Assembly (NCBI GenBank): GCA_030612585.1
Contig: JAUWNP010000074.1
Coordinates: 1 to 19,108 of the forward strand
Reading direction: 5' to 3'
Length of the DNA stretch: 19,108 bases
Source: Anaerolineae bacterium
GTDB lineage: Bacteria; Chloroflexota; Anaerolineae; B4-G1
Shown here: piece after piece, positions 1 through 19,108 of the stretch
How the letters are laid out: every line of letters begins with the position of its first letter
How positions within the stretch are numbered: position 1 is the stretch's first letter
The notes under the pieces: generated by a model
What the model was told of the DNA's origin: nothing
The model's database searches: none
Seen by the model: only the letters and a program-made list of their open reading frames with translations
Position numbers and translations under genes: made by a program

Positions 1-1
1 A

Positions 2-3000: not shown

Positions 3001-4168
3001 TGTTCGGACACACCCAGCAGACTCCAGGTTATTCAAGCCCTACGTTAGAGGACGCGACGTTGAGAGGTGGACGCCCCTTGACCCTCAAGAGTATGTCATC
3101 TTTACGCAAGGAATTGGTATTGATGAGTACCCTGCTGTGAAGGCTTATCTTGACCAATTCAGGCAGAAACTTGAAGCCAGAACAGCGGTTACTACAATTG
3201 GCAACATGTGGTTTGAGTTGCATCAGATTGCTGGATACAAGCAGCAATCTGAGCCCAAGATTGTATATCCTAGCGTTTCTCACGAGTGTCGTTTCACACT
3301 GAACTCAGATGGCACCATTGTGGACAAGACATGCTACTTCTTGTTGTCAGACAGCAAGTATTTCCTTGCTCTACTTAACTCAAGCCTAACGCTTTTCTTG
3401 TTCCGTCAACTTGGAGCAGAACGCCGTGGGGGCTACCTTGAGTTCCTTGGACAGTACGTCGCTCGACTCCCAGTCCGCTGCATCGCCTTCACCACGCCAT
3501 CCGACGAGCGAGCGCGGTTGGTGGAGGTTGGGATCACTGAGGCCACTGAGTGGATTGAAAGCACTGAAAAGGGTTCAGTGGACTCAGTGAAATTCAGTGT
3601 TTTCAGTGGTTCCAAACTCGGTCACTGGCTAGAGCAACGTCTCTCTCTCACCCACATCCCCGCCCCTCCCCTCGTCCGCCAGCACAACGCCGACCCGCTC
3701 AACACGGACTGGCAACTCCCCGAGGGTGGCCCCGTCGAGCAATCTGACGTCGTCCACGACCTCCTGGCCCACCTGGCCGGGCAGATGATTGAGATGAACA
3801 AAGAGAAGCAAGCCGAGATCAAGGGTTTCCTGGTCTGGCTGGAGCGAGAGATCGGCGCGCCCATTGACAATCTGACCCGCAAGACCCACCTCCGTAACTA
3901 CCTGGGCGACTACCAGAAAGGGGAGTCTCACCGGGCGCTGGAGGAAGTGCTGGACATCCTGCGCCGGAATCGCCGCCGGCTGAAGGTGGACCCATCAGAA
4001 CGGGCCTTCCAGGAGCAACTGGCGGGGGAGTACGAGGGTAGCCTGGGCAAACTCCTGCCCCTCAAGGCCCGCCTGGCCGGTATCGACCGGCTGATTGACC
4101 TGATCGTCTACCGGCTGTATGGGTTGACGGAGGAGGAGGTTGCCATCGTCGAAGGCAACGCGCCCTGA
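2..4168 (+). CDS. Eco57I-like type IIG restriction-modification enzyme, 5'-truncated by the window edge
   Basis: The protein should methylate adenine in a specific DNA site and cut unmodified DNA, with both activities in one chain. The reading frame is open from nt 2. Residues before the GTG at nt 200 (FSQHYL near the edge, then EAEFIRPVLEILGF) look like the normal family N-terminus, and that GTG has no ribosome binding site, so the true start lies upstream. In order: a PD-(D/E)XK-like nuclease (PD at nt 269-274, DAK at 371-379); SAM-binding motif I, DPAMGSGHF, at 1613-1639; catalytic NPPY at 2414-2425; an AT-richer target-recognition region at about 2430-3460; and a helical C-terminal region. 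A SNF2-type translocase is absent from this chain. Motif I and NPPY are intact, so it is probably active. A solo BREX-like methylase is less likely because of the nuclease motifs. The next gene begins 58 nt downstream. Confidence 0.9.
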   Translation, partial: PPPRRSRSSSKPLFSQHYLTHRIQDHSEWDDEVSEPFRRLRALYEEKRGFLSTLNEAQTEAEFIRPVLEILGFAYIPQTTTRRAGRIQRPDYALFADDETKAGAYPFQEDNEPAFYTRAMAIADAKYWERSLSEARRDDPRDVFKNSNPSFQIVNYLTGTGVNWGILTNGRHWRLYYRQASSTATEFYEVDLVDLLESGDLEQFKYFWLFFRRVAFIRDAQGRNFLERVQEGSATYARMVGDRLKERVFAEVFPYLAGGFVAYRVVRGRYVSGEVACRAIYEATLSLLYKILFLLYAEARHLLPIDNAGYRAQSLTWMAREVAERMDRAEPLGRASTALYDHVLNLFCLIDRGDPGLGLPRYNGGLFHFDFDGLADADKRRPQEKHAANWFLTQHKIADAFLAPALDLLYRANGEPVDYGYIGVRHLGAIYEGLLEHRLAVDDAAGAQVHLETDKAVRKATGSYYTPDYIVKYIVRHTLGPILEERAQRFDELMGRIAGVRRQLADGRRSASIRTLRGELDRLERQAREALLDIRVCDPAMGSGHFLVEAVDFLTDGLIEVLNRYPEHNPVLALLDRIRREIVASLQRQGIPVDPARLDDTQLLQRVVMKRCIYGVDLNPMAVELAKVSLWLHSFTIGAPLSFLDHHLRCGNSLIGATAREAHEQLSSEMPLFGGPFAGLLRAAEIMRGISILSDATFSEVEESERLFRQFDEAAKPYKRLLDIFVARHFGVRRADEFLRLYGADAIQAGPESVGQPYAEVMHQARQLYEEKRFFHWDLEFPEVFIDLERATWKENPGFDVVVGNPPYVRQESFIEIQDYISQVYSTYSGRADIYVYFLERGLSLLANRSFLSYIVSNKFTRANYGRNLRGHLAEHSAIKQMVDFGDLPVFEGVSAYPCILVLQRLKDVTLDINQVLVCRLRELHPDGIEDVVRKTAYHIPQHSLAQDTWRLEPPRITNLVTKVHSQGQSIREFCGEPTRGILTGLNEVFVVSEEMMQNIVRTHPADSRLFKPYVRGRDVERWTPLDPQEYVIFTQGIGIDEYPAVKAYLDQFRQKLEARTAVTTIGNMWFELHQIAGYKQQSEPKIVYPSVSHECRFTLNSDGTIVDKTCYFLLSDSKYFLALLNSSLTLFLFRQLGAERRGGYLEFLGQYVARLPVRCIAFTTPSDERARLVEVGITEATEWIESTEKGSVDSVKFSVFSGSKLGHWLEQRLSLTHIPAPPLVRQHNADPLNTDWQLPEGGPVEQSDVVHDLLAHLAGQMIEMNKEKQAEIKGFLVWLEREIGAPIDNLTRKTHLRNYLGDYQKGESHRALEEVLDILRRNRRRLKVDPSERAFQEQLAGEYEGSLGKLLPLKARLAGIDRLIDLIVYRLYGLTEEEVAIVEGNAP
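3535..3608. repeat. Cluster of TTCAGTG/CACTGA short repeats inside the methylase gene
   Basis: CACTGA occurs at 3535, 3544 and 3562. The opposite orientation, TTCAGTG or CTCAGTG, occurs at 3574, 3583, 3593 and 3602, with a 9-10 nt period. CACTGAA (3562-3568) and TTCAGTG (3574-3580) form a 7-bp hairpin with a 5-nt loop. CACTGAAAA (3562-3570) also pairs perfectly with TTTTCAGTG (3600-3608). The frame stays open and encodes a low-complexity Ser/Val/Glu stretch between the target-recognition region and the C-terminal helices. It looks like a small repeat tolerated in a linker; a function is not evident. Confidence 0.7.
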
Positions 4169-4226: not shown

Positions 4227-6371
4227 ATGCAGTTCCACATCACAATGAGTCGTGAGTTCTGGCAGGACTTGGGCCGTTTGCCCCCAGCCGTCTATCGGCG
4301 TGCTGTCCATGCAACCGATCGCATGATGAGAAATCCTTGGGCACAGGAATTGCACCCGGAGAAAGTGCGACGTGCAGAAGAAGGGATACATTCTTGCCGA
4401 GTGGATAAATCGCACCGCATTATCTGGAAACACGTTAAGCCCAATGATGTCGTCCTCTGTCTGGTTGATAAGCACGATGAAGCCTACCGTAGGGCCAGTC
4501 GCAAGAGTTTCACCCTTAAGGATGGCATCATCCATGTCGCTGACCTTCTAGAAGTGGGTGCCAAAGCTCCAGAACCGCGTGGACGTATCTTCAGCTGGTT
4601 TCAACGTGACGATGCGCAGCCAGGAGCGCTCTTTGTTGGCTACCGAAACCGAGAATTGCTGGATCTGGGAGTGCCGGAAGATGTACTGCCCCACATTCGG
4701 GTTCTGGACGACGTCAACCAGTTGGAGCTTGTAGAACGGTTACTTTCGACCGATGTCTACAACAGACTTCTCGAAATCGCGCTGGGCATTGTAGAACGCC
4801 CTGTGGTACCGGACAAAGAGTTGCGACATAGCCTGCAGCGCTATCAGGGCGGTGATGACCTTTACCGTTTTGTGGACAGCGAGGAGTTCAAGCGAGCCCT
4901 GACTGGCAGTATGGAGGAGTGGATGCTCTTCCTGGCACCGCATCAGCGGCAGTTGGTCACCCGGACATACAATGGCCCTGCAAGGGTGAAAGGAGTGGCA
5001 GGATCAGGAAAGACCGTTGTTGCAATCCATCGGGCTCGCCAACTAGCCCGAGTGGCCTTGCAGCAGAAGCGTAAGGTCCTCTTCCTGACATACGGGAACC
5101 GCTTGCCAGGTGTGGTCTACCATCTGTTGGAACACCTGGCCGGAGAAAACGCCCCCGAACTTGACGCTGTGGAATGTGTTACTATTCACGGGTGGTGTTA
5201 TCGCTTCCTGAAAATGTATGGCAGGCGACCGAATGTAGATGGGACGGGGGAAGCTTATAAGGCGGCTCTAAACCAAGCCATTACCCAAGCACAGCCATGC
5301 TATCCGAATCTCCGTATCTGGTCCCAGTCCCGTTCCTTCTTCGCTGATGAGATCAGATACGCAATCAAAGGACGAGCCGTCACGGCGCTGGAGGAATATC
5401 TGGCGTTAGATCGAAGCGGACGTGGTACACCATTGCGGGAGACAGAACGGCGCGCAGTCTACGCTGTCTATGAGGTCTACCAAGAGTATCTGCAGGCACG
5501 TGGCCTGTGGGACTTTGATGACTATGTCATCGAGGCCCTGCGACTCGTGGAATCGGACCACCTGCCCAACCAATACACGGCGGTGGTGGTAGATGAGATT
5601 CAGGATCTGACCGAGGCGGTGATGCGCCTAATCCGCCGCATTATACCTCCGGGCACCAATGACCTCTTCCTGGTGGGGGATGGCTTGCAGCGGATCTACC
5701 CCGGGGGCTACGCCCTTGGCCGGCTAGGCATCAACATCACAGGTCGGGGCACGCTACTACGCAAGAACTATCGCAACACTCAGGAAATCCTGCGCGCAGC
5801 CCACGCGATGATGGCTGGTCGGCGCTTCGACGATATGGGCGACGAAGAGAGTGAAGTCCCCGAGCCGGAGTTCTCGGTACGTCAAGGGGATGTTCCTGTC
5901 TTGCATCGTGCCAGGACTCCTGAACAGGAATTGGGCTGGGTCCGCAGTAAGATAGCAGAGCTGAAGAAGCAAGAGAGCTACAAGGATCGGGACATCGCGT
6001 TGCTATATCGTTGGCGGAAACCTTACCAGAATCTTATTCACCAGCACCTTGCACAGCAAGTGCAATTGGTTGAGATCCAACGTGATGCAGCCACGTACTT
6101 CGGCCCGGGCGCCAAGCATACGACCTTCCATAGCGCAAAAGGCTTGGAGTTCAAGGTGGTTTTTGTAGTCGGCGTAACCGATGGACGGTTCGTGCCTAGA
6201 GATGATTGGTCTCTGGAGGGTGAAGAACTGGCCGACTATATGGCGCGGGAGCGGCGACTCTTATACGTGGCGATGACACGCGCGCGCGACCTGCTTTACC
6301 TGACGTGCTCTCGCGGGCAGCCTTCGCGCTTTCTGGCCGATGTGCCAAACGAATACCTGAAGCGTGGGTAG
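4227..6371 (+). CDS. SF1 UvrD/Rep-like helicase with N-terminal RelE/ParE-fold domain
   Basis: This is an ATP-driven DNA helicase of 714 residues. Residues 1-95 resemble a RelE/ParE-type toxin fold (SCRVDKSHRIIW at 56-67, HDEAYRRA at 83-90). Residues 100-240 I do not recognise. The helicase core follows: Walker A GVAGSGKT at 256-263, motif II DEIQD at 456-460, motif III around LVGDGLQRIY, motif V TFHSAKGLEFK at 633-643 and motif VI AMTRARD at 682-688. All look intact. The ATG is supported by GGAGG at 4213-4217, 9 nt upstream. The 5' part is AT-richer than its neighbours (27 of 60 GC at 4381-4440, against 40 of 60 at 6661-6720), which suggests separate acquisition. The RelE-like part is probably a nucleic-acid-binding or regulatory module, since no antitoxin gene sits beside it. 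It may support the upstream restriction system. Confidence 0.93.
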   Translation: MQFHITMSREFWQDLGRLPPAVYRRAVHATDRMMRNPWAQELHPEKVRRAEEGIHSCRVDKSHRIIWKHVKPNDVVLCLVDKHDEAYRRASRKSFTLKDGIIHVADLLEVGAKAPEPRGRIFSWFQRDDAQPGALFVGYRNRELLDLGVPEDVLPHIRVLDDVNQLELVERLLSTDVYNRLLEIALGIVERPVVPDKELRHSLQRYQGGDDLYRFVDSEEFKRALTGSMEEWMLFLAPHQRQLVTRTYNGPARVKGVAGSGKTVVAIHRARQLARVALQQKRKVLFLTYGNRLPGVVYHLLEHLAGENAPELDAVECVTIHGWCYRFLKMYGRRPNVDGTGEAYKAALNQAITQAQPCYPNLRIWSQSRSFFADEIRYAIKGRAVTALEEYLALDRSGRGTPLRETERRAVYAVYEVYQEYLQARGLWDFDDYVIEALRLVESDHLPNQYTAVVVDEIQDLTEAVMRLIRRIIPPGTNDLFLVGDGLQRIYPGGYALGRLGINITGRGTLLRKNYRNTQEILRAAHAMMAGRRFDDMGDEESEVPEPEFSVRQGDVPVLHRARTPEQELGWVRSKIAELKKQESYKDRDIALLYRWRKPYQNLIHQHLAQQVQLVEIQRDAATYFGPGAKHTTFHSAKGLEFKVVFVVGVTDGRFVPRDDWSLEGEELADYMARERRLLYVAMTRARDLLYLTCSRGQPSRFLADVPNEYLKRG

Positions 6372-6442
6372 GTAACGAGGAAGCCGACTTGAGTTCCGCC
6401 AGTGCGCGTGGGGGTTGTATCCAGGCAGTGAGGAGTAAGTCT

Positions 6443-7030: not shown

Positions 7031-7062
7031 CCTGACTTGGAATCTTGAGAGGAAGAAACACC

Positions 7063-8013
7063 GTGACCGACCCATTCTCCGACCGCTACTGGATTGAAGA
7101 ATTCCAGGTCACCCAGGCCGATCTGGACCGCATCGCGGCTCACATCCGCGAGATGGGCCAGGCCCGCGACCTGACCGCTTTGGCCCGGCGTGTGGTGCGC
7201 GGCCGCCTGCGTCACGGCCCAGAGACCAGCGCCCCGGCTCACTCCGCCTGGGCTGAGGATCCATCCGTGCGCCTCTGGGACCCGGCAGGAGAGTGGAAAG
7301 AGGGAGATCACGCGATCGTTGCTGTCAACCCTCGAGATGATGATCCCAAGTGGTTTGAGCCCTTTGTAGGAGAGGTAACCAAGGTAGAGGCCGACAAAGT
7401 TACGGTGCAGATAGACGCACTGGGCGAACCCAAGTCATACCGCACGCGGGCCAAGTATAGCGAAGGTGATCTGCAAAAGTGGCGGCAACTTGTTGAGGAA
7501 CTGGTGGAAGCCCGGCGTGGCACCAAAGACGTGGAGACTCAGATCGAGTACGTGATTCTCGAACACGGGGAACGAGTCGTCAGCCAACTCCTGGACGGAT
7601 TGCGTGCCGACGGACGATTCGTCCGCCTGGCTGGTCGCTGGTTTCTACACGAACTGGCCGTGCCCCCCACCGAGGAGCAACTGGCCGCGCTGGCCTGGGC
7701 GATGGTCCCGCTCAGTGAGCCTCGGCCCACGGCAGACCTGGTCCCGCTGGTGCAGTCTCCGCTGGCTGAAGGCGCTCCCGGCCTCTTCGGCCTCTACCTG
7801 GCGCTGTGCGACCGGTCCGCTCTCTTTGAGAATGCCGATCCCGGCAAACGGCCGCGCTGGATTCTTGCCGCCCCGCCGCCAGGCTCCTGCACGCCCCGTC
7901 ACGCCGCCTACGACCCCGAAACCTACGAAGTCCTCTGCTTGCCCGGTGAACCGATCTCGCCAGAGGTGATCGGCCGGCTGTGGGACCTGGGGTTGCTAAG
8001 AGCGGTGCTCTGA
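7063..8013 (+). CDS. Uncharacterised 316-residue protein with a possible winged-helix segment
   Basis: I do not recognise the family as a whole. GTG 7063 is the likely start (MTDPFSDRYW), with GAGAGGAAG at 7048-7056 upstream; an in-frame TTG at 7045 would overlap that binding site. Three parts can be seen. The first is an N-terminal helical block (FQVTQADLDRIAAHI). The second is a beta-rich block around WKEGDHAIVAVNPRDDD and FVGEVTKVEADKVTVQID, which looks like an SH3-like barrel. The third is a stretch at about nt 7540-7655, ending in FVRLAGRWFLHELA, that looks like a winged helix of the HARE-HTH type. A similar ending occurs at the N-terminus of the large helicase fusion at 12676. There is no signal peptide. 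A DNA-linked role is inferred from context only. Confidence 0.8.
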   Translation: MTDPFSDRYWIEEFQVTQADLDRIAAHIREMGQARDLTALARRVVRGRLRHGPETSAPAHSAWAEDPSVRLWDPAGEWKEGDHAIVAVNPRDDDPKWFEPFVGEVTKVEADKVTVQIDALGEPKSYRTRAKYSEGDLQKWRQLVEELVEARRGTKDVETQIEYVILEHGERVVSQLLDGLRADGRFVRLAGRWFLHELAVPPTEEQLAALAWAMVPLSEPRPTADLVPLVQSPLAEGAPGLFGLYLALCDRSALFENADPGKRPRWILAAPPPGSCTPRHAAYDPETYEVLCLPGEPISPEVIGRLWDLGLLRAVL

Positions 8014-8014
8014 T

Positions 8015-8043
8015 TTGTGCCTGACGCTCTGCTGTGGTAGAAT
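8015..8043 (+). promoter_or_regulatory. Predicted sigma70-type promoter with extended -10, upstream of abiEi
   Basis: TTGTGC (8015-8020) and TAGAAT (8038-8043) are separated by exactly 17 nt. TG at 8035-8036, one base before the -10, forms an extended -10 element. The site begins just after the stop codon of the preceding gene and lies 32 nt from the abiEi start. AbiEi proteins are known to repress their own promoter by binding inverted repeats. I see only one small inverted repeat nearby (AGAGC, 3 nt, GCTCT, at 7999-8011), too weak to call an operator. Confidence 0.55.
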
Positions 8044-8075
8044 AGGGCTATAAGTCGAGAGGAGAATCACCGCCA

Positions 8076-8849: not shown

Positions 8850-9601
8850 TGTTGACCAAAGCCCAGATTCAGCGGATTGCTCAGCGGCACGGGGTCGGGA
8901 TGCAGGTTCAGGAGCGGGACTACCTGCAGCACCTGCTCCTGTGGCTTCTCTACTCCCGCAGCCAGGAACTGATCTTCAAGGGCGGCACGGCCCTGCGGCT
9001 GGTCTACGGCGGCAATCGTTACTCTGAGGACCTGGACTTCAACGGGCCGGACGACGACGTCGTGCTGGAGGCCCTCTGGGAGCAGGTCGTCGCCGGACTG
9101 GAGGACTTCGGGGTCGTTGCCGAGATGCGTAACACCTGGACCTCCGATGTGGGGTACAGTTTCGACGTCAGTTTCCGGGGGCCGCTCTACGACGGGCGGG
9201 ATCGCAGCAAGGGAAAGGTGCGGGTGGACGTCAACCGGCGGCTGGAGGAGGTGGAAGCGCGCCGGGAACTGGTGGCCTCCGAGTACGACGACGTGCGCCC
9301 CTTCGTGGTGACGGTGCTGACGCTGGAGCACCTGCTGGCGGAGAAGGTGCGGGCGCTGCTGATGCGGAGCAAGCCGCGAGATCTGTATGACATCTGGCTG
9401 CTCTTGCGCCGGGGGGTGCAGCCTGACCAGGCGCTGGTCGAACGCAAATTGGCACTCTATAGGATGGCGTGGGAGCCCGACGCGCTGGAGGAAGCCCTGG
9501 AGCGTGTTCGCGCCGGTTGGGAGCGGGACCTGCGGCACCTGCTGCCCCAGTTCGTAGCCTACGACGACGCGCGTGAGGGCGTGGAAACCCTGCTGGAGTG
9601 A
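8849..9601 (+). CDS. abiEii: AbiEii-type nucleotidyltransferase toxin
   Basis: Members of this DUF1814/AbiEii family are polymerase-beta-like nucleotidyltransferases; relatives such as MenT toxins add nucleotides to tRNA acceptor ends and stop translation. The expected core is present: KGGTALRL at 44-51, SEDLDF at 59-64 with the D61/D63 metal-binding pair, RVDVN in the middle, a conserved Lys166 in AEKVRALL, and RDLYD at 177-181. Length (250 residues) is normal and no key residue is missing, so it should be active. AbiE pairs give abortive-infection protection in lactococci and stabilise plasmids. The downstream STAND gene begins 7 nt after the stop, which is unusual for a stand-alone AbiE pair and suggests a shared transcript. 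Confidence 0.9.
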   Translation: MLTKAQIQRIAQRHGVGMQVQERDYLQHLLLWLLYSRSQELIFKGGTALRLVYGGNRYSEDLDFNGPDDDVVLEALWEQVVAGLEDFGVVAEMRNTWTSDVGYSFDVSFRGPLYDGRDRSKGKVRVDVNRRLEEVEARRELVASEYDDVRPFVVTVLTLEHLLAEKVRALLMRSKPRDLYDIWLLLRRGVQPDQALVERKLALYRMAWEPDALEEALERVRAGWERDLRHLLPQFVAYDDAREGVETLLE

Positions 9602-9608
9602 ACTGACT

Positions 9609-12600
9609 GTGAGCATTCAAGCCCTCTGGGCGAGTCTACCCTCTGACGTGAAGACCCTTCTGTTGGGGGCTGGCGGAGAACTGACCGCTACTCTGGTGGA
9701 GCGGGCGCTGGATGCCCTGGGCACCGCTGTGCACGGCACGCCCCAGGAGCAGGCCATACGCGAGGCTTACGCCCAGGCTGGCGTTGCCTTCCTGACCTGC
9801 CTCGATCTGCCGCAGGAGACGGAAACCTTCGAGGACTGGAAGACCCACATCCAAGACCTCCTCGACCCCGTCTTTGACGATGACCGCGTGCAGACCGTCC
9901 TGACCGACGCCGTTCTCCACAAGGACCGGCCCGAAGCCGTGGACCCTGGCCCCGTCCAGGCCGCCTGGGTCGAGTGCCACGGCGAGGGGACGGAAGCCAC
10001 CCTCCCCTGGCGAGAGGGGCTAGGCCTACCCGACGCCGTCCGCGCTTTCGCCCGCGCCTTCGAGCACGAGGCCGAGGCCCGCCCCGAACTCCACACCTTC
10101 CTCATCGCCGCCCGCCTCAAGCGGGCCGTAGGCCGGCTGGAGACAGGGGTGCAGGTCGAGGGGATGGAAGAGCTGCTGCGGGCTGTGGGGAGCCTGACCG
10201 ACCAGCAGGAGCGCCTCCTGGCTCTCTTTACTGACCTGGCCCGGATGGGCTACGGTGTCCGCTCCGTTTCCGTCGAACGTGATGTGACCGGCAGTGTCAT
10301 CGTCACCGGGGACAACAACCAGGTCCTCGTGGCCGACGGGGGCCTTCTGGCCCGCCTCTTCCGCGGACTGCCGGACCGGGAGCAGATGTTGACTGAATAT
10401 CGGGCCCACATCCGCCGCACCTGTGTTTACCTCGACCTGAAGGGGCTGGCTCTCCCCGAGGTCCACGGGCGCCCTCTGGACCCTGCCTTGGTGCGCATCT
10501 CCCTGGACCGGGTGTACATCAAACTGCGGGCGTTGCCCCGCCAGGGCCGCCCCGAGACACTGCCTCCGCCGGAAGATGCTGGGGCGATGGCCCGCTACCT
10601 CCAAGAGCGGCAAAGACGGAGGTGGAGGGGGGAGGAGAGGGCGTGGGCCGGGGAGCGCATACCGGTGCCCCTGGAGCAGGCGGTGGCGGAATACGCCCAA
10701 CTGGTTATCCTGGGCGCCCCGGGTGCGGGCAAGTCCACCTTCCTGCGCCATCTGGCCTGGGCCGACGCCGCCGGAGAAGGGCCGCTGCCCCTCCTGGTGC
10801 CCCTGGGCCGGGCCGCTGTGGCGATGGAGGGCGGATGCTCTCTTCTGGACGCCGCCCTGGACCTGCTGACCCACCACAAAGCGGGGGCGGAACGGAAACA
10901 GCTCCGGCCTGCTCTGGAGGAGGAGATCGCCGCCAAACGGATCCACTGGCTGTGGGATGGCCTGGACGAGGTCAGGTTGCACCGTCGGGAGGTGGCGGAC
11001 GCCTTGGCCCGCCTGACCGCCGACGGCCATCGAATGGTCGTTACCTCTCGACCTTTGGGGTACGAGCCCCTCCCTGGCTGCGACGCCCTCTACGAGGTGT
11101 TGCCTCTTCAGCCAGAGGACGCCCGCGCCTTCGTGGACCGTTGGTTCCTGGCGCTGGCGGAGGCGCGCGGTGTGCCGGAAGGAGAGCGGGAAGCGTGGGC
11201 TGGGGAGCGGGCCCGCTGGCTGAGGGAGCAACTGGACACCCGCTCCGGCCTACGGGAGGTGGCCGAAAACTCCCTGATGCTCACCTTCCTGGCCGTCTTG
11301 GCCGGCGACGAACCCCGGCAGGATTTTCCCCGCTATCGCAAGGACCTCTACGCCCGCTATGTGGAGCGGCTCTTCACTGCCTGGGAGGCCTCGCGGCGGG
11401 GTGGCGAGGAGGTGCCGCTCTTGGACGGCTTCCAGGACGCCAACGAGGCCCGCGAGGTGGCCCTGTGGGGCTTTCGCCGGGTGGCGCTGCACCTGCACCG
11501 GGCCTACGCCGAAAAACCTGCGCAGGCCAGCTGCCCTGCCGTCAAGGCGGCCCTGGCCGACGAATTGGCCCGCACGGCGGGGCTGGGCCGCTTCCAGGCA
11601 CCAGCCCAGGCCGGGGCCATCCTGGCCTTCTGGGAGCGGGCCGGGCTGCTGGATGGCTACCGGCTGGGTGACTGGGAGTGGCTGGCCTTCCGCCACCTGA
11701 CTTTTCAGGAATATGGCGCGGCCCGCGCCCTGGCCGAGGCCTATCAGGACGACCCCGACGGTCTCTGGGCCGAACTGGAGTCTCACATTCTGGACGACGA
11801 TTGGGCCCAGGTCATCCCCCTGGCACTGGCCCATTTGGAGGATCCCACGCCTCTGTTGGAACGGCTGCTGGAGGCAAATGCCCAAGATGAGGATAGACAG
11901 CGCCCGCTCTTTCTGGCAGCGGCGACGCTATCTGACGGGGCGAGTGGAACAGAAGCACAACACAGGCAGATGGTCGATAGTCTTGAGAATCTGATCCGCA
12001 CGCGGGATGATTCGAAACGGGAGAGGAGAGTCGGTGATTTCGATGCCATCACTGCTATGAGCAATCTTGGGGGTGAATCGTACGCACAGTCTCGTCTCCT
12101 GGTCTTGGCCCACGACAGCACAGTACGCCTCGGGGCGCGTCTATGTGCCGTCATGGCGCTAGGCCGGCTGAGCCAGATCGATGCCCTGCTGGCCTTGGCC
12201 CGAAACGACGAGATGGGAACAGCGATACGTCTGCGGGCTGGTGAGGCCCTGGGAAAACTGGGCCAGGCTGACAGTCTGCTAGCGTTGGCCCATGATGGTG
12301 CGACGGACCCATGGACGCGCCGGGAGGCTGCCAAGGTCTTAGGACTACTGGGCTGGACCGACGATGCCGCCCCCATTCTTCTAGCACTGGCTCGCGATAC
12401 CGCGATACTCCCGCAGGTGTGTTCGCTGGCCGTTAATGCCCTGGACTTTCTGTACCGAGCCGATGAACTATCAGCATTGGCCCACGACAGTCAGGTGAGT
12501 CTGTGGGTACGGTTACAGGCTGTCGAAGCCTTAGGCCATCAGGGTCGGACCATTGCCAGGTCGAAGGCGCTGGATGGGCTGCGGGCCGTAGCAGAGGATC

Positions 12601-12671
12601 GCGCCACGCCGGAGGAGGTCCGCCAGGCGGCGAGACGGGCTTTGCAGCGACTGGAGGGTCAGAAGGAATAG
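9609..12671 (+). CDS. NACHT-like STAND ATPase with C-terminal HEAT-like repeats (bacterial NLR-type)
   Basis: This 1020-residue protein looks like a signal-transducing ATPase that senses a ligand through C-terminal repeats and triggers an effector. GTG 9609 is preferred because GGAG lies 10 nt upstream; an in-frame GTG at 9573 would sit inside abiEii. Residues 1-210 are helical and unassigned, with no catalytic motif I recognise. A beta element (TGSVIVTGDNNQV) follows at about 225-240. The ATPase core has Walker A GAPGAGKST at 369-377, Walker B DGLDE at 450-454 and VVTSRPLGY near 477. Residues 828-1020 hold about six degenerate 30-residue HEAT-like units (LLALAHD, ending ALGKLG). Anti-phage STAND proteins of this plan are known. 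Here the effector may be another operon protein. The downstream gene starts 4 nt later. Confidence 0.85.
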   Translation: MSIQALWASLPSDVKTLLLGAGGELTATLVERALDALGTAVHGTPQEQAIREAYAQAGVAFLTCLDLPQETETFEDWKTHIQDLLDPVFDDDRVQTVLTDAVLHKDRPEAVDPGPVQAAWVECHGEGTEATLPWREGLGLPDAVRAFARAFEHEAEARPELHTFLIAARLKRAVGRLETGVQVEGMEELLRAVGSLTDQQERLLALFTDLARMGYGVRSVSVERDVTGSVIVTGDNNQVLVADGGLLARLFRGLPDREQMLTEYRAHIRRTCVYLDLKGLALPEVHGRPLDPALVRISLDRVYIKLRALPRQGRPETLPPPEDAGAMARYLQERQRRRWRGEERAWAGERIPVPLEQAVAEYAQLVILGAPGAGKSTFLRHLAWADAAGEGPLPLLVPLGRAAVAMEGGCSLLDAALDLLTHHKAGAERKQLRPALEEEIAAKRIHWLWDGLDEVRLHRREVADALARLTADGHRMVVTSRPLGYEPLPGCDALYEVLPLQPEDARAFVDRWFLALAEARGVPEGEREAWAGERARWLREQLDTRSGLREVAENSLMLTFLAVLAGDEPRQDFPRYRKDLYARYVERLFTAWEASRRGGEEVPLLDGFQDANEAREVALWGFRRVALHLHRAYAEKPAQASCPAVKAALADELARTAGLGRFQAPAQAGAILAFWERAGLLDGYRLGDWEWLAFRHLTFQEYGAARALAEAYQDDPDGLWAELESHILDDDWAQVIPLALAHLEDPTPLLERLLEANAQDEDRQRPLFLAAATLSDGASGTEAQHRQMVDSLENLIRTRDDSKRERRVGDFDAITAMSNLGGESYAQSRLLVLAHDSTVRLGARLCAVMALGRLSQIDALLALARNDEMGTAIRLRAGEALGKLGQADSLLALAHDGATDPWTRREAAKVLGLLGWTDDAAPILLALARDTAILPQVCSLAVNALDFLYRADELSALAHDSQVSLWVRLQAVEALGHQGRTIARSKALDGLRAVAEDRATPEEVRQAARRALQRLEGQKE
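12090..12663 (+). repeat. HEAT-like repeat block in the STAND protein
   Basis: Five clear units of about 30 residues and a sixth weaker one follow the pattern D-x-LLALA-x-D, then R-x2-A-x2-ALG-x-LG. The first and fifth units share the 14 bases TTGGCCCACGACAG at 12105-12118 and 12477-12490, which points to fairly recent internal duplication or conversion. Blocks of this kind serve as ligand-binding solenoids in STAND proteins. Confidence 0.7.
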
Positions 12672-12675
12672 GTAG

Positions 12676-15600
12676 ATGAGCCAAGCCCTCAGCCAGGCCA
12701 TTCACCAAACTCTCAACAACAATCCCGACGGTCTCACCGAGCGGGAGATCCGCCGGGCTGTCATCGAGGGGCTTGGCCTGCGTTGCACCCCACGCGAGGT
12801 CCGGGAAACCCTGCACACCCACCCGGACCTTTTTGTCCCCCTGGCTGGCGGTGTGTGGCGCTCCAAAGCAGCAGTGGAGGCGGAAAAGGTCGCGGCCAAC
12901 GTCGAAGAAGTACCCCGCGAACGGGGCGAGGTTCAACGACCCTACCTGGCGGACCTTCCGTCTCTGGAATCCTTCATCGCCTTCGACCTGGAGACCACCG
13001 GCGTCAAGCCCGAGCGCGACCACATCATTCAGATCGCTGCCGTGCGTTTTGTGGATGGCCGGCCCGCGCCCGCCGTTGCCGATGATGGGACTGAATTGCC
13101 CCCCGTGTTCAACGAGTACGTGGACCTGGAGGGGCGCGAGATACCTTACGGCCTCAAGGTCAAATTGGGCTTCACCGACCACCCGGAGTGGGAGCAGGAA
13201 CTGGCACGGGCCGCTCCTCTGGCGGAGGTGCTGGAGAGATTCCACCACTGGGCCGGCGACCTGCCCCTGGTGGCCCACAACGTTCGTTTCGATCTCACAT
13301 TCCTGAGACAGGCCGCCGACCCGATTGGGTGGGAGATCACCAATCCTATCGTGGACTCAATGGAACTGGCCTGCCTGGCCCAAGGGGGCACGGGCCGTTT
13401 CCGCCTTGAGGAACTGGCCCGCTCGCTCAATGTTGGGGAGGGACTGAGCGGAGGCCGTCAGGTCGAGGACTGGGCCAGCCAGCAGGGGGTGGGTGCCTTT
13501 TCCTGGACCGGCTTCCACAACGCCGTGGTGGACGTACTCGTGCTGGCGGCGGTGGTCCCTCGGCTGGTGGAGGCCATCCAGAAGCGGATGGTTGAGAACC
13601 CCCTGCTGGCTGGGGAGTTCGTCCGGTTGATGGGCCATGCAGCGACCAGGCTGGGGATAATCGCATCATCGGCGGTGGAGGATCGCGACGCTGTCATCGC
13701 AGAACTCGTCCGAGAGACCTCCGAGGTTTTGGCCGCAAATTCAGGTCAATTGGAGCCAGAACACGGGGCGGGGCCTCTCCAGGAAGACTTGTCGGAAACC
13801 TCGGAGGTCTTTCTCACGCCGGAGGCGGTGCGGGCACGGTTCGAGGAAATGGTTGAGCGGCACGGCCTCAGGAGACGTGAAGCCCAGTTCCAGATGGTCG
13901 AGCATGTGAGTCGCGCGCTCCGGGACGAGCGTTTTATGGCCGTCGAGGCCCCCACCGGCACCGGCAAGACCTTCGCCTACCTGGTCCCTGCCATCCTCTG
14001 GGCCCGCGGCCAGGGTGAGCCAGTCGTCATCTCTACCTACACCCGTTTGCTCCAGGATCAGATGGCCGACGCCCTGGAGCGGGTTCGCCAGAACCTGGGA
14101 ACGGATTTCCAGGCCCAGGTGCTCAAGGGCATGCGTAACTACATCTGCCTTGAGCGAGCAGCGGCCGTCTATGCCCAGACTTGCGTAGGTGACTTGGATG
14201 AAGAGCAGCGTTTCGCCTGGTTGGTCCTGCTGACCTGGCTCTCGGTCACCCGTGAGGGGCTGCTGGACGAGTTGAGTTACTGGGCGCTCACCACGTTCCC
14301 GGCGCTGGCCCGGCTGTGCGAGGCTCTGCGGGCAGAGCAGGGGGAGTGTCCCCGCAAGCATTGCCCGGCGCGCGAATCTTGCTTCCACCGCCTGGCCTAT
14401 GACCGGGCTCAACAGGCCGATGTAGTCGTGATGAACCACGCCCTGCTGCTTTCCAAGGAGTGGGAGCAGGCCGGGCTGCCCTTCACCCGCGTCGTGGTGG
14501 ACGAGGCCCACAACCTGGAGGACGCAGCCACTGCTGCCGCCACCGACGAGGTCTCCTGGGGGGGCATCGTCTACCTGGTAAACCGGCTGCTCGACCGGCG
14601 GTCGGGCCGGGGGGTGCTGATCCGGGTGCGCGACAAGGTGCGGGACGCCGGGGGCCAGCGGCTCATCGCGCGGGCGCTCCAGGGACGGAGCCTCCTGGCG
14701 ACGTTGGCGGAGGACTTTGGGCAGCGGCTGCACCGGTACGTGGAGTTGAACCGCGCCCAGGTGGACCCGCGATATGGGGCCAGGTTGGCTCTGGAGGCGG
14801 ACCCGCGCCGCGCCAACCCCCGCAGTTGGAAGCCGGTCGAAGAGGCGCGCCAGAGGCTATCAGAGGCGCTGCGGGAGACCGGCCAGGTGGTGGCACGGCT
14901 GAACAGCTGGCTGAACGAACATCCCCTGCCCGCCTTCCAGGAGGAGACGCGAAACGAACTGAGGTTCCTGGCCGAGCAACTGGCCGAGCAGGCGTATCTA
15001 CTTGAAAACCTGCTGCGGGTCGGCTACGACCGGCTGGTTCGTCTGCACTGGATCGAGGTTGAGCGGGCGATCCCGCCGGGGGAGGCCGAGGAGCAAGAGG
15101 AATACACCGGCCCTTACCGCTGGGCGGTCAAACGCGCCCCGGTGCGGGTGGCCCCGTATCTGGAGGAGCGGCTGTACGAGACCTGTCAGACCCTGGTCTT
15201 GACCTCGGCTACGCTGCGCACTACCAGGGAGGCGGGGTTTGGGTTCATTCTTGACCGGCTGGGGCTCTTGGAACGAGTGCGGCCGGAGGACGCTGTCGCC
15301 CTGCCGCCGGAGTTGGACTACAGCCGGGCGCTGTTTGCCGTCGCTCGTTACATGCGCGCCGATGCCCGGCCCAGCGAGATTCAGAACTTCGTGGATGAGG
15401 TAACCCAGGAACTGGGCTGGTTCTACTCCTTCACCGGCGGCAATGGCCTGACGCTGTTCACCGCCCGCGAACGCATGCTGCGGGTCTTCCGCGACCTGGA
15501 GCCTGCCTTGGGTGAGCACAGCATTCCCGTTGGCTGCCAGGGGGAAACTGGCAGCCGGAAAGCCCTGCTGGAGGAGATCAAGGCACGCCCCGGTTCGGTA

Positions 15601-18387
15601 CTGTTGGGACTGAAGAGTTTCTGGGAGGGGGTGGATGTGCCCGGTCCTAACGTCTCCTACGTCGTGATGGAGAAACTCCCCTTCCCATTGTTGGGCGATC
15701 CGGTGATCCGCGCCCGCGCGGCGGAGGTTCGCGCCCGGGACGGCCACGAGTTCGCCGACTACATCCTACCACTGATGCTGATTGACTTCAAGCAAGGGTT
15801 CGGCCGGCTGATCCGGGGGGAGGAGGACATCGGCGCGGTGCTCCTCCTGGACAAGCGGGTGTGGAACCGCGAGTACCGTCGGGACCTGTTGGCGGCTTTG
15901 CCAGGAGCGAATGACACAGGGGGCAGCGGCCAGGGGCCACGGCTGTTGGATGATGGGATATTGCTGTCCCGTCGGGCGGTCTACCGGGCCGTGGCTGACC
16001 ATATGGCCCAGGCACCCCCAAAGTGGCGCATTGACCTGGAGCGGATGGAGCATATCCTGGCTGAGGTGCCGGAGCGGCTTCTGACTGGGCTGGAGCGATT
16101 GTTGGCCGACTTACGCCTGCCGCGTATCGTGTCCTCGGAACGGCTGCGGGAGGTCTGGGACCGGGTGCTCCGGGGGATGCGGGAACTCTTCGGCTTCCAG
16201 GAATGGCGTCCGCCGGAGCAAGAGGATGTGGTGCGGGCGGCTCTTACTGGACAGGATGCCCTGGTTGTGCTGCCCACGGGATCCGGCAAGTCGTTCACCT
16301 TCCAGTTGCCGGCGCTGCTGCGGGAGGGCACCACCCTGGTCTTCTCGCCGCTGAAGGCGCTGATGAAGGACCAGGTAGATCGGCTACTGGACCGGGGGCT
16401 GGCTGTGGCCGAGCGGGTAGATAGCAGCCAGACGGCTGAGGAGCAAGAGCGGGTCTATCAGCGTATGCAGGAAGGGACAGTGCGGCTGGTCTACATTGCC
16501 CCAGAGCGGGTGCGGGACCCTCGGCTGCTGGCGGCGCTGAGGTTGGCGCGGAACGTCGTTCAGGTGGTGGTGGATGAGGCCCATTGCGTCCACACGTGGG
16601 GCTACAGTTTCCGGCCCGACTTTCTGTACATCCACCACCTGGTGGACGTCATCGCCGAGGCCCAAGGCTACCGGCCGCCAGTCGCCGCGTTGACGGCGAC
16701 GGCCACACCTCGGGTGCGGGTCTCCATCGCCGAGCGGCTGGAACTCCGCCCGGGCTACCAGGAGATCGAGCGCAACCCCAACCGCCCTGAACTGCGCTTC
16801 GTGGTGTACAACCGCACGAGCCCGGGGTTCCGGGTGCGCAGCAAGCGGGACAAACTCCGCATCCTGCTGCGCATCCTGCGCGCAGCCGATCGGCGCAACG
16901 AGAGCGGTATTGTCTACATCAACACGACGCGGGAGGCGGAGCGGCTGGCCCGCAGGCTGGAGGCGGTGGGACTGGACGCTCGCTACTACCACGGCAAGAT
17001 GGACGACCAGGCCCGCAAGGAAGTCCAGGACATGTTCCTGGATGGTCAGATCAACGTCATCGTGGCCACCAAGGCCTTCGGGATGGGCATTGACAAACCG
17101 GATATCCGCTACGTGGTCCACTATCAGATTCCGGGGGACATCGAGTCGTACTTCCAGGAGGCAGGCCGTGCCGGGCGCGACAGCCAGGTGAGTTGGTGTG
17201 TGTTGCTCTACCACGAGGGCGACCTCTGGATTCACGAGAACTACTTCATCCCCAAAAGTCTGCCCGAGTCAGAGCAGGTGGCGAACGTGTTGGAGTGGCT
17301 CCGCCGTCGCTGCGGGACGGACGAGGGGAGCCCAATCTACGTGGACCCCCGAGAAGCGGCTGACGCGCTGGACTTTGATGAGCAGCGGGAATTGGGCATC
17401 CACCTGCATTTGCTGGAGGAGATGGGCTTCATTCGACGTGGCGTGGACGTGACCCTGAAGGCCAGCGCGCGGCTGTTGGCACCGCTGGAGGTGGTGGCAG
17501 CGCGGGCTCAAGATGTGGCACCGGGGCCAGTAGGAGGGGCAATCGGGCGGGTGTTGGAGGTCCACGGGATCGGTCAGGTAGCCCGAGGTGAACTGCCGGT
17601 CGTGGAGGCGGCACTGGCGGAGGGCCTGGACCCGCTGGCGCTGGACGAGGCGCTGTATCAACTGGCCCTGCAAGGGCTCCTGATCTACCGAGGGTTTGCT
17701 CGGGCGTTCGTGCTGACGCCTGGGCCGAGGATGCTGGAGGGGGCGCGGCTGGACCTGGACCTGGGGGAGGCCCGCCGGGTGCGAGGGGAGATGGAGGCCA
17801 ACCTGGCCGCGATGCGACGGTATGCCGAATCGCTGAAAGTTGGCGATTGCTTGCGGGAGGAGATCCTCAGGTACCTGGGGGCCGAGAAGCCGCCCACCCG
17901 CGCCGGCGAATGTTGCTCGCTGTGCGACGTGAACCTGGCCGTCCCCTGGGCCGACGAATCTGCGTGGGAGGATCTAACCGACCCAGGACGGTACCAGGAT
18001 GCCAAATACACGATTCTGAAGGCGGTGGCCTGGGATGCGGGATTGGCCAACGTGAGAGGGCGTGCGCCTTATGGGGCCTGGACACTGGCCCAGATCCTCG
18101 TGGGAAACGACTATATGGCTACCAAGTATCAGACAGACCCCGAGCGGAAGAAAGCACGGCGACGGCTTATTGTGTCCAGCGAACACTTCGGAGCGCTGGA
18201 GGGGTTGCGTGGGGGCGCAGACACCGTGTTAGACTTTCTTGATGCACTCCAGGCGGAGGGATACGTGGAGGATGTGGAGCGGCGGTGGAATGGCGGCACA
18301 TACATCTATCCGGCGTCGACCCCCAAAGGAGTACAGCGTCTGAAAGAAGGACGGCTGTTCGGTAGCGAGGCAAGCGCTGATGGGTGA
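12676..18387 (+). CDS. Triple fusion: DnaQ-like exonuclease, DinG/XPD-like FeS helicase and RecQ helicase
   Basis: One open frame of 1903 residues joins three enzymes. Residues 1-60 resemble a winged helix. The exonuclease has DLETTG at 104-109, HNVRFD at 201-206 and the HxxxxD pair H281/D286, so the DEDDh set is complete. The DinG part has Walker A APTGTGKT (Lys431), four cysteines C491, C558, C563 and C569 placed for an iron-sulfur cluster, DEAH at 609-612, and QGFGRLIR at 1040-1047. The RecQ part has LPTGSGKS (Lys1205), DEAH at 1300-1303 and QEAGRAGRD at 1494-1502. It then has an insertion of about 200 residues, a cysteine cluster (C1725, C1746, C1747, C1750) and an RQC-like winged helix. 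Exonuclease-DinG fusions are known in Firmicutes; the added RecQ is the unusual part. ATG follows AAGGAA by 7 nt. Confidence 0.95.
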   Translation: MSQALSQAIHQTLNNNPDGLTEREIRRAVIEGLGLRCTPREVRETLHTHPDLFVPLAGGVWRSKAAVEAEKVAANVEEVPRERGEVQRPYLADLPSLESFIAFDLETTGVKPERDHIIQIAAVRFVDGRPAPAVADDGTELPPVFNEYVDLEGREIPYGLKVKLGFTDHPEWEQELARAAPLAEVLERFHHWAGDLPLVAHNVRFDLTFLRQAADPIGWEITNPIVDSMELACLAQGGTGRFRLEELARSLNVGEGLSGGRQVEDWASQQGVGAFSWTGFHNAVVDVLVLAAVVPRLVEAIQKRMVENPLLAGEFVRLMGHAATRLGIIASSAVEDRDAVIAELVRETSEVLAANSGQLEPEHGAGPLQEDLSETSEVFLTPEAVRARFEEMVERHGLRRREAQFQMVEHVSRALRDERFMAVEAPTGTGKTFAYLVPAILWARGQGEPVVISTYTRLLQDQMADALERVRQNLGTDFQAQVLKGMRNYICLERAAAVYAQTCVGDLDEEQRFAWLVLLTWLSVTREGLLDELSYWALTTFPALARLCEALRAEQGECPRKHCPARESCFHRLAYDRAQQADVVVMNHALLLSKEWEQAGLPFTRVVVDEAHNLEDAATAAATDEVSWGGIVYLVNRLLDRRSGRGVLIRVRDKVRDAGGQRLIARALQGRSLLATLAEDFGQRLHRYVELNRAQVDPRYGARLALEADPRRANPRSWKPVEEARQRLSEALRETGQVVARLNSWLNEHPLPAFQEETRNELRFLAEQLAEQAYLLENLLRVGYDRLVRLHWIEVERAIPPGEAEEQEEYTGPYRWAVKRAPVRVAPYLEERLYETCQTLVLTSATLRTTREAGFGFILDRLGLLERVRPEDAVALPPELDYSRALFAVARYMRADARPSEIQNFVDEVTQELGWFYSFTGGNGLTLFTARERMLRVFRDLEPALGEHSIPVGCQGETGSRKALLEEIKARPGSVLLGLKSFWEGVDVPGPNVSYVVMEKLPFPLLGDPVIRARAAEVRARDGHEFADYILPLMLIDFKQGFGRLIRGEEDIGAVLLLDKRVWNREYRRDLLAALPGANDTGGSGQGPRLLDDGILLSRRAVYRAVADHMAQAPPKWRIDLERMEHILAEVPERLLTGLERLLADLRLPRIVSSERLREVWDRVLRGMRELFGFQEWRPPEQEDVVRAALTGQDALVVLPTGSGKSFTFQLPALLREGTTLVFSPLKALMKDQVDRLLDRGLAVAERVDSSQTAEEQERVYQRMQEGTVRLVYIAPERVRDPRLLAALRLARNVVQVVVDEAHCVHTWGYSFRPDFLYIHHLVDVIAEAQGYRPPVAALTATATPRVRVSIAERLELRPGYQEIERNPNRPELRFVVYNRTSPGFRVRSKRDKLRILLRILRAADRRNESGIVYINTTREAERLARRLEAVGLDARYYHGKMDDQARKEVQDMFLDGQINVIVATKAFGMGIDKPDIRYVVHYQIPGDIESYFQEAGRAGRDSQVSWCVLLYHEGDLWIHENYFIPKSLPESEQVANVLEWLRRRCGTDEGSPIYVDPREAADALDFDEQRELGIHLHLLEEMGFIRRGVDVTLKASARLLAPLEVVAARAQDVAPGPVGGAIGRVLEVHGIGQVARGELPVVEAALAEGLDPLALDEALYQLALQGLLIYRGFARAFVLTPGPRMLEGARLDLDLGEARRVRGEMEANLAAMRRYAESLKVGDCLREEILRYLGAEKPPTRAGECCSLCDVNLAVPWADESAWEDLTDPGRYQDAKYTILKAVAWDAGLANVRGRAPYGAWTLAQILVGNDYMATKYQTDPERKKARRRLIVSSEHFGALEGLRGGADTVLDFLDALQAEGYVEDVERRWNGGTYIYPASTPKGVQRLKEGRLFGSEASADG
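13715..13810. repeat. 15-bp perfect inverted repeat in the linker between exonuclease and DinG parts
   Basis: AGACCTCCGAGGTTT (13715-13729) is the exact reverse complement of AAACCTCGGAGGTCT (13796-13810), with 66 nt between. Each arm is itself nearly palindromic (ACCTC-C-GAGGT), so the arms also read as direct repeats. In frame they encode ETSEV twice (residues 347-351 and 374-378). The position is the interdomain linker. Confidence 0.75.
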
Positions 18388-18479
18388 TGGAGCAGGTCTA
18401 TTGAACCAAGTCGTGCCGTTAGATGTATATACTATGCCCCCAGATGATCACATAGTGACCGTGTCCAAAGGGTGAGGTT
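18388..18479. other. Short intergenic gap with only weak promoter-like sequence
   Basis: TATACT at 18428-18433 resembles a -10 box, but the nearest -35-like TTGAAC (18401-18406) is 21 nt away, too far for a normal promoter. A small TCAC-ATA-GTGA inverted repeat lies at 18448-18458. There is no terminator hairpin with a T-run after the helicase fusion, so the end of that transcript is not visible. Confidence 0.3.
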
Positions 18480-18839
18480 ATGTCCGCGACAACCGCTGTG
18501 TCTACCGCCGCAGCAGAGATCGCCTGGTCGCCGGACGGTGCGCACATTGCCGTTGTCGCCAGCGAGAATTATCGGGAGGGGGAGGCCACCGCCTTGCACC
18601 TCGTCGCGCTAGAGATGGGCGAGGTCACCATCGTCGTGGACGGCGAGGGTTGGCTCTTCTGGCTCAACTGGTCGCCGGATGGAACCCGCCTGCTGTTCAC
18701 GATGGGGGAAATGCGCCAGCGGTACGAGACCGACTTCCCCTACGCCGATCTATGGCTCTACGACGTCGCGTCCGGCGAATTGGAACAATTGACGTTGGGC
18801 GGGGGGTTTGGTCGCCGTAACGTGAAATGTGAAGCGTGA
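18480..18839 (+). CDS. Truncated PD40/TolB-like beta-propeller fragment
   Basis: This 119-residue frame has two PD40-type blades (IAWSPDGAHIAVVA and LNWSPDGTRLLFT), then ADLWLYDVASGELEQLTLGG, which normally leads into another blade. It stops instead after an unrelated tail (RRNVKCEA). Full propellers need several more blades, and the N-terminus has no signal peptide although such proteins are usually exported. I read it as a remnant of a larger gene, or a recently truncated one. GGTGAGG just upstream could serve as a ribosome binding site. It is not obviously linked to the defense genes. It could instead be a genuine short protein, but two blades are unlikely to fold alone. Confidence 0.6.
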   Translation: MSATTAVSTAAAEIAWSPDGAHIAVVASENYREGEATALHLVALEMGEVTIVVDGEGWLFWLNWSPDGTRLLFTMGEMRQRYETDFPYADLWLYDVASGELEQLTLGGGFGRRNVKCEA

Positions 18840-18875
18840 ACGTCGGTAGTTGGCTCAATGGCTTGAGAACCTGAA

Positions 18876-18884
18876 AGGAGTGAG
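18876..18884 (+). promoter_or_regulatory. Ribosome binding site that points to an ATA start
   Basis: AGGAGTGAG precedes the ATA at 18888, with 7 nt between AGGAG and that codon. No ATG, GTG or TTG exists in the lipoprotein frame between the stop at 18864 and the lipobox, so this site decides the start. Confidence 0.5.
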
Positions 18885-18887
18885 ATC

Positions 18888-19108
18888 ATATCTGCTCAAT
18901 ATAAAGCAATCGCCGCCGCGATAATCGTTCTGATCCTGGTCACCGGTTGTGTGCAAGCGGAGCCCATAGTTACGATTGCCACCTACGGTAGCAGCGAGAG
19001 GGCCACAGGTACGCCCGCGCCTGCCCCTTCGACCTCAACCCCAACTGCCGCGCCGAGAGGTGAAGGCCGCGCAGATGGCTTGCCGGAAGAGCCTGCCCTG
19101 AGCGAAGC
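18888..19108 (+). CDS. Lipoprotein, 3'-truncated by the window edge, apparent ATA start
   Basis: The frame gives a typical lipoprotein signal peptide: a short basic start (SAQYKA), a hydrophobic core (AIAAAIIVLIL) and the lipobox LVTGC, with the acylated cysteine at codon 21 (nt 18948-18950). After cleavage comes a Thr/Pro/Ser/Ala-rich linker (TGTPAPAPSTSTPTAAP), as in many exported binding or beta-propeller lipoproteins of high-GC Gram-negative-like bacteria. The frame is still open at the right edge. The only sensible start is ATA 18888, placed correctly after AGGAGTGAG; it may be a mutated ATG or a sequencing error. Together with the preceding PD40 fragment it may belong to a family of exported beta-propeller proteins, but the catalytic or binding domain is not in the window. 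Confidence 0.6.
   Translation, partial: MSAQYKAIAAAIIVLILVTGCVQAEPIVTIATYGSSERATGTPAPAPSTSTPTAAPRGEGRADGLPEEPALSE
19089..19108. repeat. Probable start of a dispersed genomic repeat, cut by the window edge
   Basis: The last 20 bases, GAGCCTGCCCTGAGCGAAGC, match, from memory, the beginning of a short palindromic element scattered through many bacterial genomes, which usually continues toward TCGAAGG. Here it would lie inside the lipoprotein gene (EEPALSEA). Only half the element could be present, so this is tentative. Confidence 0.35.

Follow-up and report, generated by a model that had tools for sequence, protein, structure and literature searches.

A DnaQ-DinG-RecQ fusion protein of an Anaerolineae bacterium as a probable effector of accessory, restriction-linked defense operons

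Introduction

Does a protein that joins a DnaQ-type exonuclease, a DinG-type helicase and a RecQ-type helicase in one chain repair host DNA, or does it process foreign DNA as part of a defense system? The question is raised by the DnaQ-DinG-RecQ fusion (the fusion hereafter) encoded on the plus strand at 12676..18387 of a contig from an Anaerolineae bacterium (Chloroflexota; assembly GCA_030612585.1, contig JAUWNP010000074.1, positions 1 to 19,108). The whole stretch of 19,108 nucleotides is referred to as the window. The open reading frame (ORF) of the fusion has an ATG start and zero internal stops and encodes 1903 amino acids (aa). Intact catalytic modules, a patchy spread, clade-specific partner genes (several of them translationally coupled) and linkage to methyltransferase and defense genes suggest, with a probability of about 60%, that the fusion is a DNA-processing helicase-nuclease effector of accessory, restriction-linked defense operons. 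If this is true, a protein that public genomes label as no more than a "RecQ family helicase" would be the core of an undescribed defense operon, and one chain carrying motors of opposite polarity together with a nuclease would provide a compact test of RecBCD-like machines. A version of the fusion is carried by the laboratory strain Thermus thermophilus HB27, which makes the question directly testable. Loci and genomes are designated below by L and G numbers, and papers are cited by PubMed Central (PMC) number for the available portions of their text.

Results

Domains and catalytic motifs of the fusion

The first-pass annotation of the window had described an exonuclease and an iron-sulfur (Fe-S) DinG helicase in one 1903-residue frame, and Pfam, NCBIfam and motif residues all agreed with this. 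The DEDDh exonuclease (residues 101-253, 12976..13434) matched PF00929 RNase_T at 1e-12, and in a comparison with the PDB this part matched PolC and DEDDh chains. Exonuclease motif III was found at residues 281-286, outside the Pfam RNase_T span. Conservation was tabulated over 19 locus copies, the broken copy in G542 being excluded; the residue counts were computed, and the conserved residues were given the names of the catalytic motifs that we take them to represent. D104, E106 and D206 were present in 16 of the 16 fusion rows reaching them; for H281 and D286 the count was 17 of 17.

The DinG/XPD-type helicase spans residues 387-1081 (13834..15918), as delimited by Pfam, NCBIfam, motif residues and alignment to 6fwr. 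Pfam gave ResIII at 401-476, Helicase_C_2 at 918-1076 (2e-35) and DEAD_2 at 567-623 (20.6 bits, slightly below the cut-off); the NCBIfam DinG model matched residues 387-1078 with 410 bits, under its equivalog cut-off. K431, D609, E610, H612, Q1040, G1043, R1044 and R1047 were kept in 19/19 fusions, and A611 in 18/19. The best solved matches to this part were the DinG of Staphylococcus aureus (SaDinG, 8zef) and E. coli DinG (6fwr). Four cysteines (491, 558, 563 and 569) form a predicted Fe-S metal site of the DinG/XPD-like kind in the window fusion; they align with those of the solved E. coli DinG, 6fwr being the only one of the two structures to align them. All four were present in 13 of the 19 fusions, the window's included. 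They were all gone in L064, L065, L078 and L079, and two were left in L008 and L091. The helicase motifs of the four fusions that lost all of these cysteines are intact despite the loss.

The RecQ helicase core (D1-D2, residues 1165-1525, 16168..17250) showed Pfam matches to DEAD at 1180-1344 (2e-37) and Helicase_C at 1393-1501 (1e-28), and matched the NCBIfam RecQ model TIGR00614 with 339.8 bits, above the cut-off. The core motifs and fold of the RecQ-family superfamily 2 (SF2) helicases are present, and K1205, the DEAH box at 1300-1303, Q1494, R1498 and R1501 were kept in 19/19 fusions. The RecQ part had been called complete, which holds for the canonical helicase core but not for what follows it. 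An insert of ~180 aa (17251..17781; delimited by how far the structural alignments reach and by the secondary structure in the AlphaFold model) separates the core from the zinc site and is probably winged-helix-like. The zinc-binding subdomain (17782..17946) is reduced to C1725, C1747 and C1750, all kept in 19/19 fusions; RecQ_Zn_bind (PF16124) matched residues 1703-1750 with 20.4 bits, below the 25-bit cut-off. No HRDC domain was among the listed Pfam matches of the fusion. The C-terminal tail (17947..18384) is helical with a strand pair in the predicted structure and may also be winged-helix-like. At the other end, the first ~70 aa (12676..12885) gave no listed match in the Pfam scan and look helix-turn-helix-like by eye; this extension was found in most rows of alignment A1 and was missing from the Thermus row.

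Homologs and distribution

A search of ~5.8 billion proteins, in which 7991 candidates were scored, returned 330 with E ≤ 0.001. Among the 120 homologs listed, with identities from 98% down to 36%, 109 carried the exonuclease, Helicase_C_2 and DEAD/Helicase_C; ten of the others gave no exonuclease match and one no Helicase_C_2 match. These 109 lie on other contigs, so the fusion is not restricted to one assembly, and a frameshift or misjoin is very unlikely. Quick trees of the DinG part and the RecQ part of 39 fusions had 29 of 36 splits in common, which fits one ancestral fusion passed on as a unit; long branches were flagged for L080, L089 and L063. The 120 listed homologs supplied the selected rows of alignment A1 (23) and the 20 P rows used in the trees. 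Three-domain homologs and congruent DinG and RecQ trees together rule out an artifact or misassembly. A viral origin was also rejected: the 45 viral_contigs loci of the A1 scan each matched inside one part, DinG or RecQ, and none across both (two extended slightly beyond the DinG part), and the two matches at E ≤ 1e-40 in phage records were both to the RecQ part only.

The distribution of the fusion is patchy and accessory. It was detected in 4/301 genomes in the phylum of G002, 6/396 in the class of G002, 3/47 in the class of G303 and 3/158 in the class of G284, while the phylum of G001 (84 genomes) gave one fusion and one RecQ-only match; the genome sets overlap, the cut-offs differ between them, contig ends truncate some of the counted copies (G275, G541, G839 and G874), and the broken G542 copy is counted as well. 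G002 has two diverged copies. Other source names among the listed homologs are Armatimonadetes, Fervidibacteria, Poribacteria and Parcubacteria. The fusion is linked to defense and restriction-modification genes, and its homologs do not amount to a described housekeeping enzyme. The conditions for refutation set in the first-pass annotation thus do not refute its interpretation.

The Thermaceae versions

A DnaQ-DinG-RecQ fusion was named in T. thermophilus HB27 in 2005 (Omelchenko et al., 2005; PMC1274311), the one short description found in the literature searched. The first-pass annotation knew of no characterized fusion that includes RecQ; a functional study was indeed not found in the literature searched (most subscription papers lie outside its scope), but the architecture itself dates in print from 2005. 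What is new, as far as that literature shows, is the evidence on operons and partners. The searched text of PMC12458937, on YprA helicases, mentions neither DinG, RecQ nor DnaQ.

The HB27 protein (TT_RS10770, on pTT27) has 1649 aa and ~31% identity to the window protein. A cassette of genes A, B and C directly follows the fusion in 8/8 Thermaceae loci opened, as recognized by BLAST and profiles in seven scanned loci and by gene order and lengths in L071. Protein A is a coiled-coil protein by weak Pfam matches. Protein C (e.g., L004 17591-19135) is labeled "transcription antiterminator BglG" in some records; Pfam found nothing in either of the two that were scanned. The cassette has CRISPR genes nearby in L004 and L087, and in L069 its surroundings include a gene annotated brxL. 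When the HB27 protein was compared with plasmid records by tblastn, 21 Thermaceae records matched over 79% or more of its length, with the match in one record split into three pieces. Four T. thermophilus plasmid records, HB8 included, matched only its first 249 aa. The exonuclease end alone is left in HB8 (L088 9001-9891), 99.6% identical over these 249 aa, and the annotation of this locus, one opened of the four, contains no DinG, RecQ or A-B-C.

These versions bear on an alternative in which the fusion is an accessory DNA repair enzyme, that is, a SaDinG-like crosslink or replication-fork enzyme with RecQ opening the other strand side, merely carried on plasmids and islands. SaDinG combines 3'-5' exonuclease and 5'-3' helicase activities in crosslink repair in S. 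aureus (PMC12345164), and for this reason repair stays a live rival. Moreover, all three activities are of the repair type, the Thermus papers file the gene under repair, and PADLOC gave no match for Thermaceae C. The patchy distribution argues in the other direction, as does the recurrent linkage with restriction-modification and other defense genes described below. In a 2026 transposon sequencing (Tn-seq) study the pTT27 "recQ" was rated Highly Permissive and placed in the shell of pangenomes (PMC13140390). That gene, given there with no locus tag, would be TT_RS10770, and the rating is weak evidence against a repair role because many normally essential genes were permissive too. On balance, we consider a repair role unlikely.

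Linkage to restriction-modification genes

Ten fusion genomes were searched for the N6_Mtase family (PF02384). A match lay within 5 kb of the fusion in four of seven loci vs. 0.14 expected (P 3.3e-6, random placement). The seven loci were those whose contig continues for 5 kb or more upstream of the fusion (G303, G025, G457, G528, G002:C91, G284 and G542), and the short-contig loci of G275, G456, G541, G002:C209, G839 and G874 were excluded; G002:C91 carries an N6_N4 methyltransferase and was scored as a miss. Both the loci and the family were picked after seeing the data and defense genes cluster, so this test shows island linkage and not partnership. In the window, a DNA methyltransferase gene (2-4168) belongs to the same cluster as the fusion.

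In three loci (L065, L078 and L079), hsdR, a methyltransferase gene and hsdS lie just upstream of the fusion. The order in L065 and L078 is hsdR, hsdM, hsdS (two pieces in L078), fusion and partner gene D; in L079 it is hsdR, methyltransferase, an hsdS-like gene, fusion, D and an HmaA-like helicase (1309 bits). The genes after the fusion and D in L079 (1-8099) encode this HmaA-like SNF2 helicase as well as sigma-70-like and TGT-like proteins. The position of the type I genes directly upstream would also fit a host-protecting helper, which repairs or clears host DNA cut by the neighboring type I or IIG nucleases (restriction alleviation) and does not attack foreign DNA. RecBCD has both roles in E. 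coli, host repair and attack on foreign DNA, which we count in favor of such a helper. However, the Thermaceae loci opened have no annotated restriction-modification operon next to the cassette (with the caveat of an incomplete PLSDB gene table), and we regard this explanation as improbable.

Partner genes next to the fusion

Gene D was found directly 3' of the fusion, with a 4-bp overlap, in 4/4 loci (L064, L065, L078 and L079); a short contig carries both genes in L064. Of the 47 genomes in the class of G303, D occurs in three, precisely those with the fusion, and in 0 of the other 44. By its D protein (P0134), the G303 carrier is Tengunoibacter tsumagoiensis. Overall it is present in 4 of 12 fusion genomes, adjacent each time, and absent from the other eight. 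The positive genomes are rows of D's own profile by construction, and the informative part of these counts is the absences.

The partner gene in the window, P' (7063..8013, plus strand, 316 aa, GTG start with an alternative TTG at 7045), has 60% identity over 315 aa to a gene that precedes the L090 fusion by 19 bp. With window P' alone as the query, 7/396 genomes matched at E ≤ 1e-15, and its neighbor in 7/7 was either the fusion or a fusion remnant (three genomes) or a relative of the window methyltransferase (four genomes). P' is thus a methyltransferase- and fusion-linked protein. The L090 locus (G528) reads DUF5131 gene, PDC-M41A candidate, N6 methyltransferases, P', 19 bp and fusion; in L083 (G839) the last 61 residues of P' lie at a contig end and are followed by the fusion. 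L114 (G786) contains the end of P', AbiEi (78%), a partial AbiEii (83%) and two fusion pieces within 1.7 kb, and is a decayed copy of the P'-AbiEi-AbiEii-fusion order of the window; no NACHT gene was detected in L114. The AbiE pair and the NACHT gene between P' and the fusion vary (window 8076-12671, L114 2489-4155, L090 and L083), so this stretch gains and loses genes. Relatives of the window methyltransferase (main matches 33-36% over 547-835 aa) accompany P' in G671, G747, G793 and G798, and the stretches opened there gave no fusion match. L115, L116 and L117 (G671, G798 and G747) carry tandem methyltransferase and P' pairs, two of each, which are possibly a restriction-type system of their own.

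Another partner gene, P, comes directly after the fusion in L008, where it encodes 229 aa close to the end of the contig, and in L091 (664 aa). In P0129 and P0130, the C-terminal half of P is joined to an N6 methyltransferase. We rejected P as a fusion-specific gene: its profile matches 250/396 genomes, and although its three best matches adjoin the fusion, those loci are rows of the profile and provide no evidence. The proteins in the 250 genomes are mostly of ~530 aa with the P domain (e.g., L110 1519-3102) and have no Pfam family over cut-off. The predicted structure of P from L091 (pLDDT 55.5) gave weak winged-helix and Tudor/chromo-like matches in Foldseek (best E 0.058), and alignment A2 gave nothing convincing against PDB sequences (best E 0.058).

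For a single partner common to all clades, hhalign comparisons among P, D, C, A and B gave no convincing support; the best pair was P vs. D (135 columns, E 0.0088, probability 4.6). Several loci carry other genes next to the fusion. In L063 (901-7425 and 13469-15409), a 2174-aa sacsin/TmtA-like gene overlaps the end of the fusion and a PD-T4-6-like kinase gene lies upstream. L002 has a methyltransferase gene and a 1122-aa gene upstream. On a Deinococcus actinosclerus plasmid (L089 6610-14567), a 1759-aa fusion is followed by an 886-aa gene that has no Pfam family over cut-off and no P, D, A, B or C profile match.

The fusion could also be a defense-island passenger with no single conserved role, which different clades use differently and hence with different partners. 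Two observations are in line with this: neither BLAST nor hhalign detects a relationship between the partners, and L002, L063, L080, L089 and L092 gave no P or D profile match. Translational coupling with 4-bp overlaps, the confinement of D to the fusion genomes of its class, the 7/7 genomes in which P' adjoins the fusion or a methyltransferase gene, and a partner type that tracks the fusion tree make the passenger explanation very improbable.

The window operon

Eight assigned genes, from 2 to 18387, are all on the plus strand, no gap between them exceeding 71 bp, in the order methyltransferase, UvrD-like, 195-aa gene, P', AbiEi, AbiEii, NACHT and fusion. The first encodes a type IIG/DrmMI-like N6 adenine methyltransferase (2..4168; PF07669, PF02384 and PF12950), its left end open at the window edge, and PADLOC matched it to DrmMI and REase_MTase_IIG. 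The UvrD-like helicase (4227..6371) has an N-terminal extension of ~230 aa. A homolog of it in T. oshimai (L069 6352-8136; 30% over 728 aa) lies 3 bp upstream of the fusion and adjoins the gene annotated brxL. The 195-aa protein (6443-7030), encoded just upstream of P', gave no Pfam match. Between P' and the fusion lie the AbiEi/AbiEii pair (8076-8849 and 8849-9601) and a NACHT STAND ATPase with an NNH2-like N-terminus and HEAT repeats (9573..12671; NACHT and NNH2 slightly below the Pfam cut-offs). The NACHT gene may start at GTG 9573, and GTG 9609, past the AbiEii stop, is the likelier start; its stop lies 4 bp ahead of the fusion ATG.

Discussion

Assessment and possible mechanism

A number of observations weigh against the defense-effector reading. 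P/P', D and A-B-C are without detectable relatedness, P is not specific to the fusion, and neither P nor D gave a profile match in the five loci named above or in the cut contigs L001 and L003. Four of the seven genomes with P' itself have no fusion match in the stretch opened, and in the window 4.7 kb separate P' from the fusion. As defense genes cluster, closeness to the fusion may be island-sharing. The Fe-S cysteines are incomplete in 6/19 fusions, so the DinG motor may differ there. Finally, published treatments put the Thermus gene under DNA repair, and the lack of a PADLOC match for C points the same way. With these points taken into account, we still favor a defense effector at the probability stated above.

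If the fusion is such an effector, a DNA-binding partner (P/P', D or Thermaceae A-B-C) and the nearby methyltransferase would separate self from foreign DNA, and the fusion would load onto foreign DNA that is unmodified or replicating, at its gaps or ends. RecQ translocates 3'-5'. With DinG (5'-3') on one strand and RecQ on the other, both motors would advance the same way into the duplex, and the DEDDh exonuclease would degrade the 3'-ended strand, in a manner RecBCD-like in logic only. Given a defense role, such dual-motor action is plausible by analogy, at about even odds. More doubtful, though possible, is that the operons represent a modification-linked immune system of a new class, spread over Chloroflexota, Thermaceae and other phyla, in which a single-chain helicase-nuclease with two motors of opposite polarity would be the effector and work like a one-polypeptide RecBCD, a DNA-binding partner (D, P/P' or A-B-C) would target it and adenine methylation would restrain it.

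Comparison with known systems

PADLOC gave 57 matches on the fusion, and the best 25 of them each cover a single part. The typeIV_DinG models of type IV CRISPR matched the DinG part only, with no csf effector among the matches listed for the eight window ORFs; likewise, the DpdF models of Dpd matched the RecQ part only, with no DpdA among those matches. Membership of the window in either system was therefore rejected, as the companion genes were not among the matches listed. A TGT-like gene lies near the fusion in L079.

The fusion and WRN both contain an exonuclease and a RecQ helicase; WRN acts in eukaryotic genome maintenance and has no DinG motor. With RecBCD and AdnAB the fusion may have a common logic, namely two motors of opposite polarity and a nuclease on one DNA end. 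RecBCD and AdnAB use superfamily 1 (SF1) motors and a RecB-type nuclease, whereas the motors of the fusion are SF2 (DinG and RecQ) and Pfam gave no match to an SF1 (UvrD-like) motor or a RecB-type nuclease in the fusion at E ≤ 0.001, so only a functional analogy with RecBCD is possible. Unlike for RecBCD, we know of no Chi-like regulation for the fusion.

The fusion resembles SaDinG and Bacillus subtilis DinG in having an exonuclease with DEDDh motifs N-terminal to a DinG helicase, a SaDinG-type trait, but these proteins have no RecQ part, which follows in the same frame in the fusion. The HB27 protein (PMC1274311) has the same three parts in the same order and is likewise accessory, being absent as a whole from HB8; it differs from the window fusion in lacking the N-terminal extension, in being followed by A-B-C and not by P or D, and in having, as judged by eye, four zinc cysteines. 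The fusion is like Druantia III DruH-DruE and Hma in that a giant helicase or helicase-nuclease is found with companions in a defense operon, DruE being a helicase-nuclease effector (PMC13192584).

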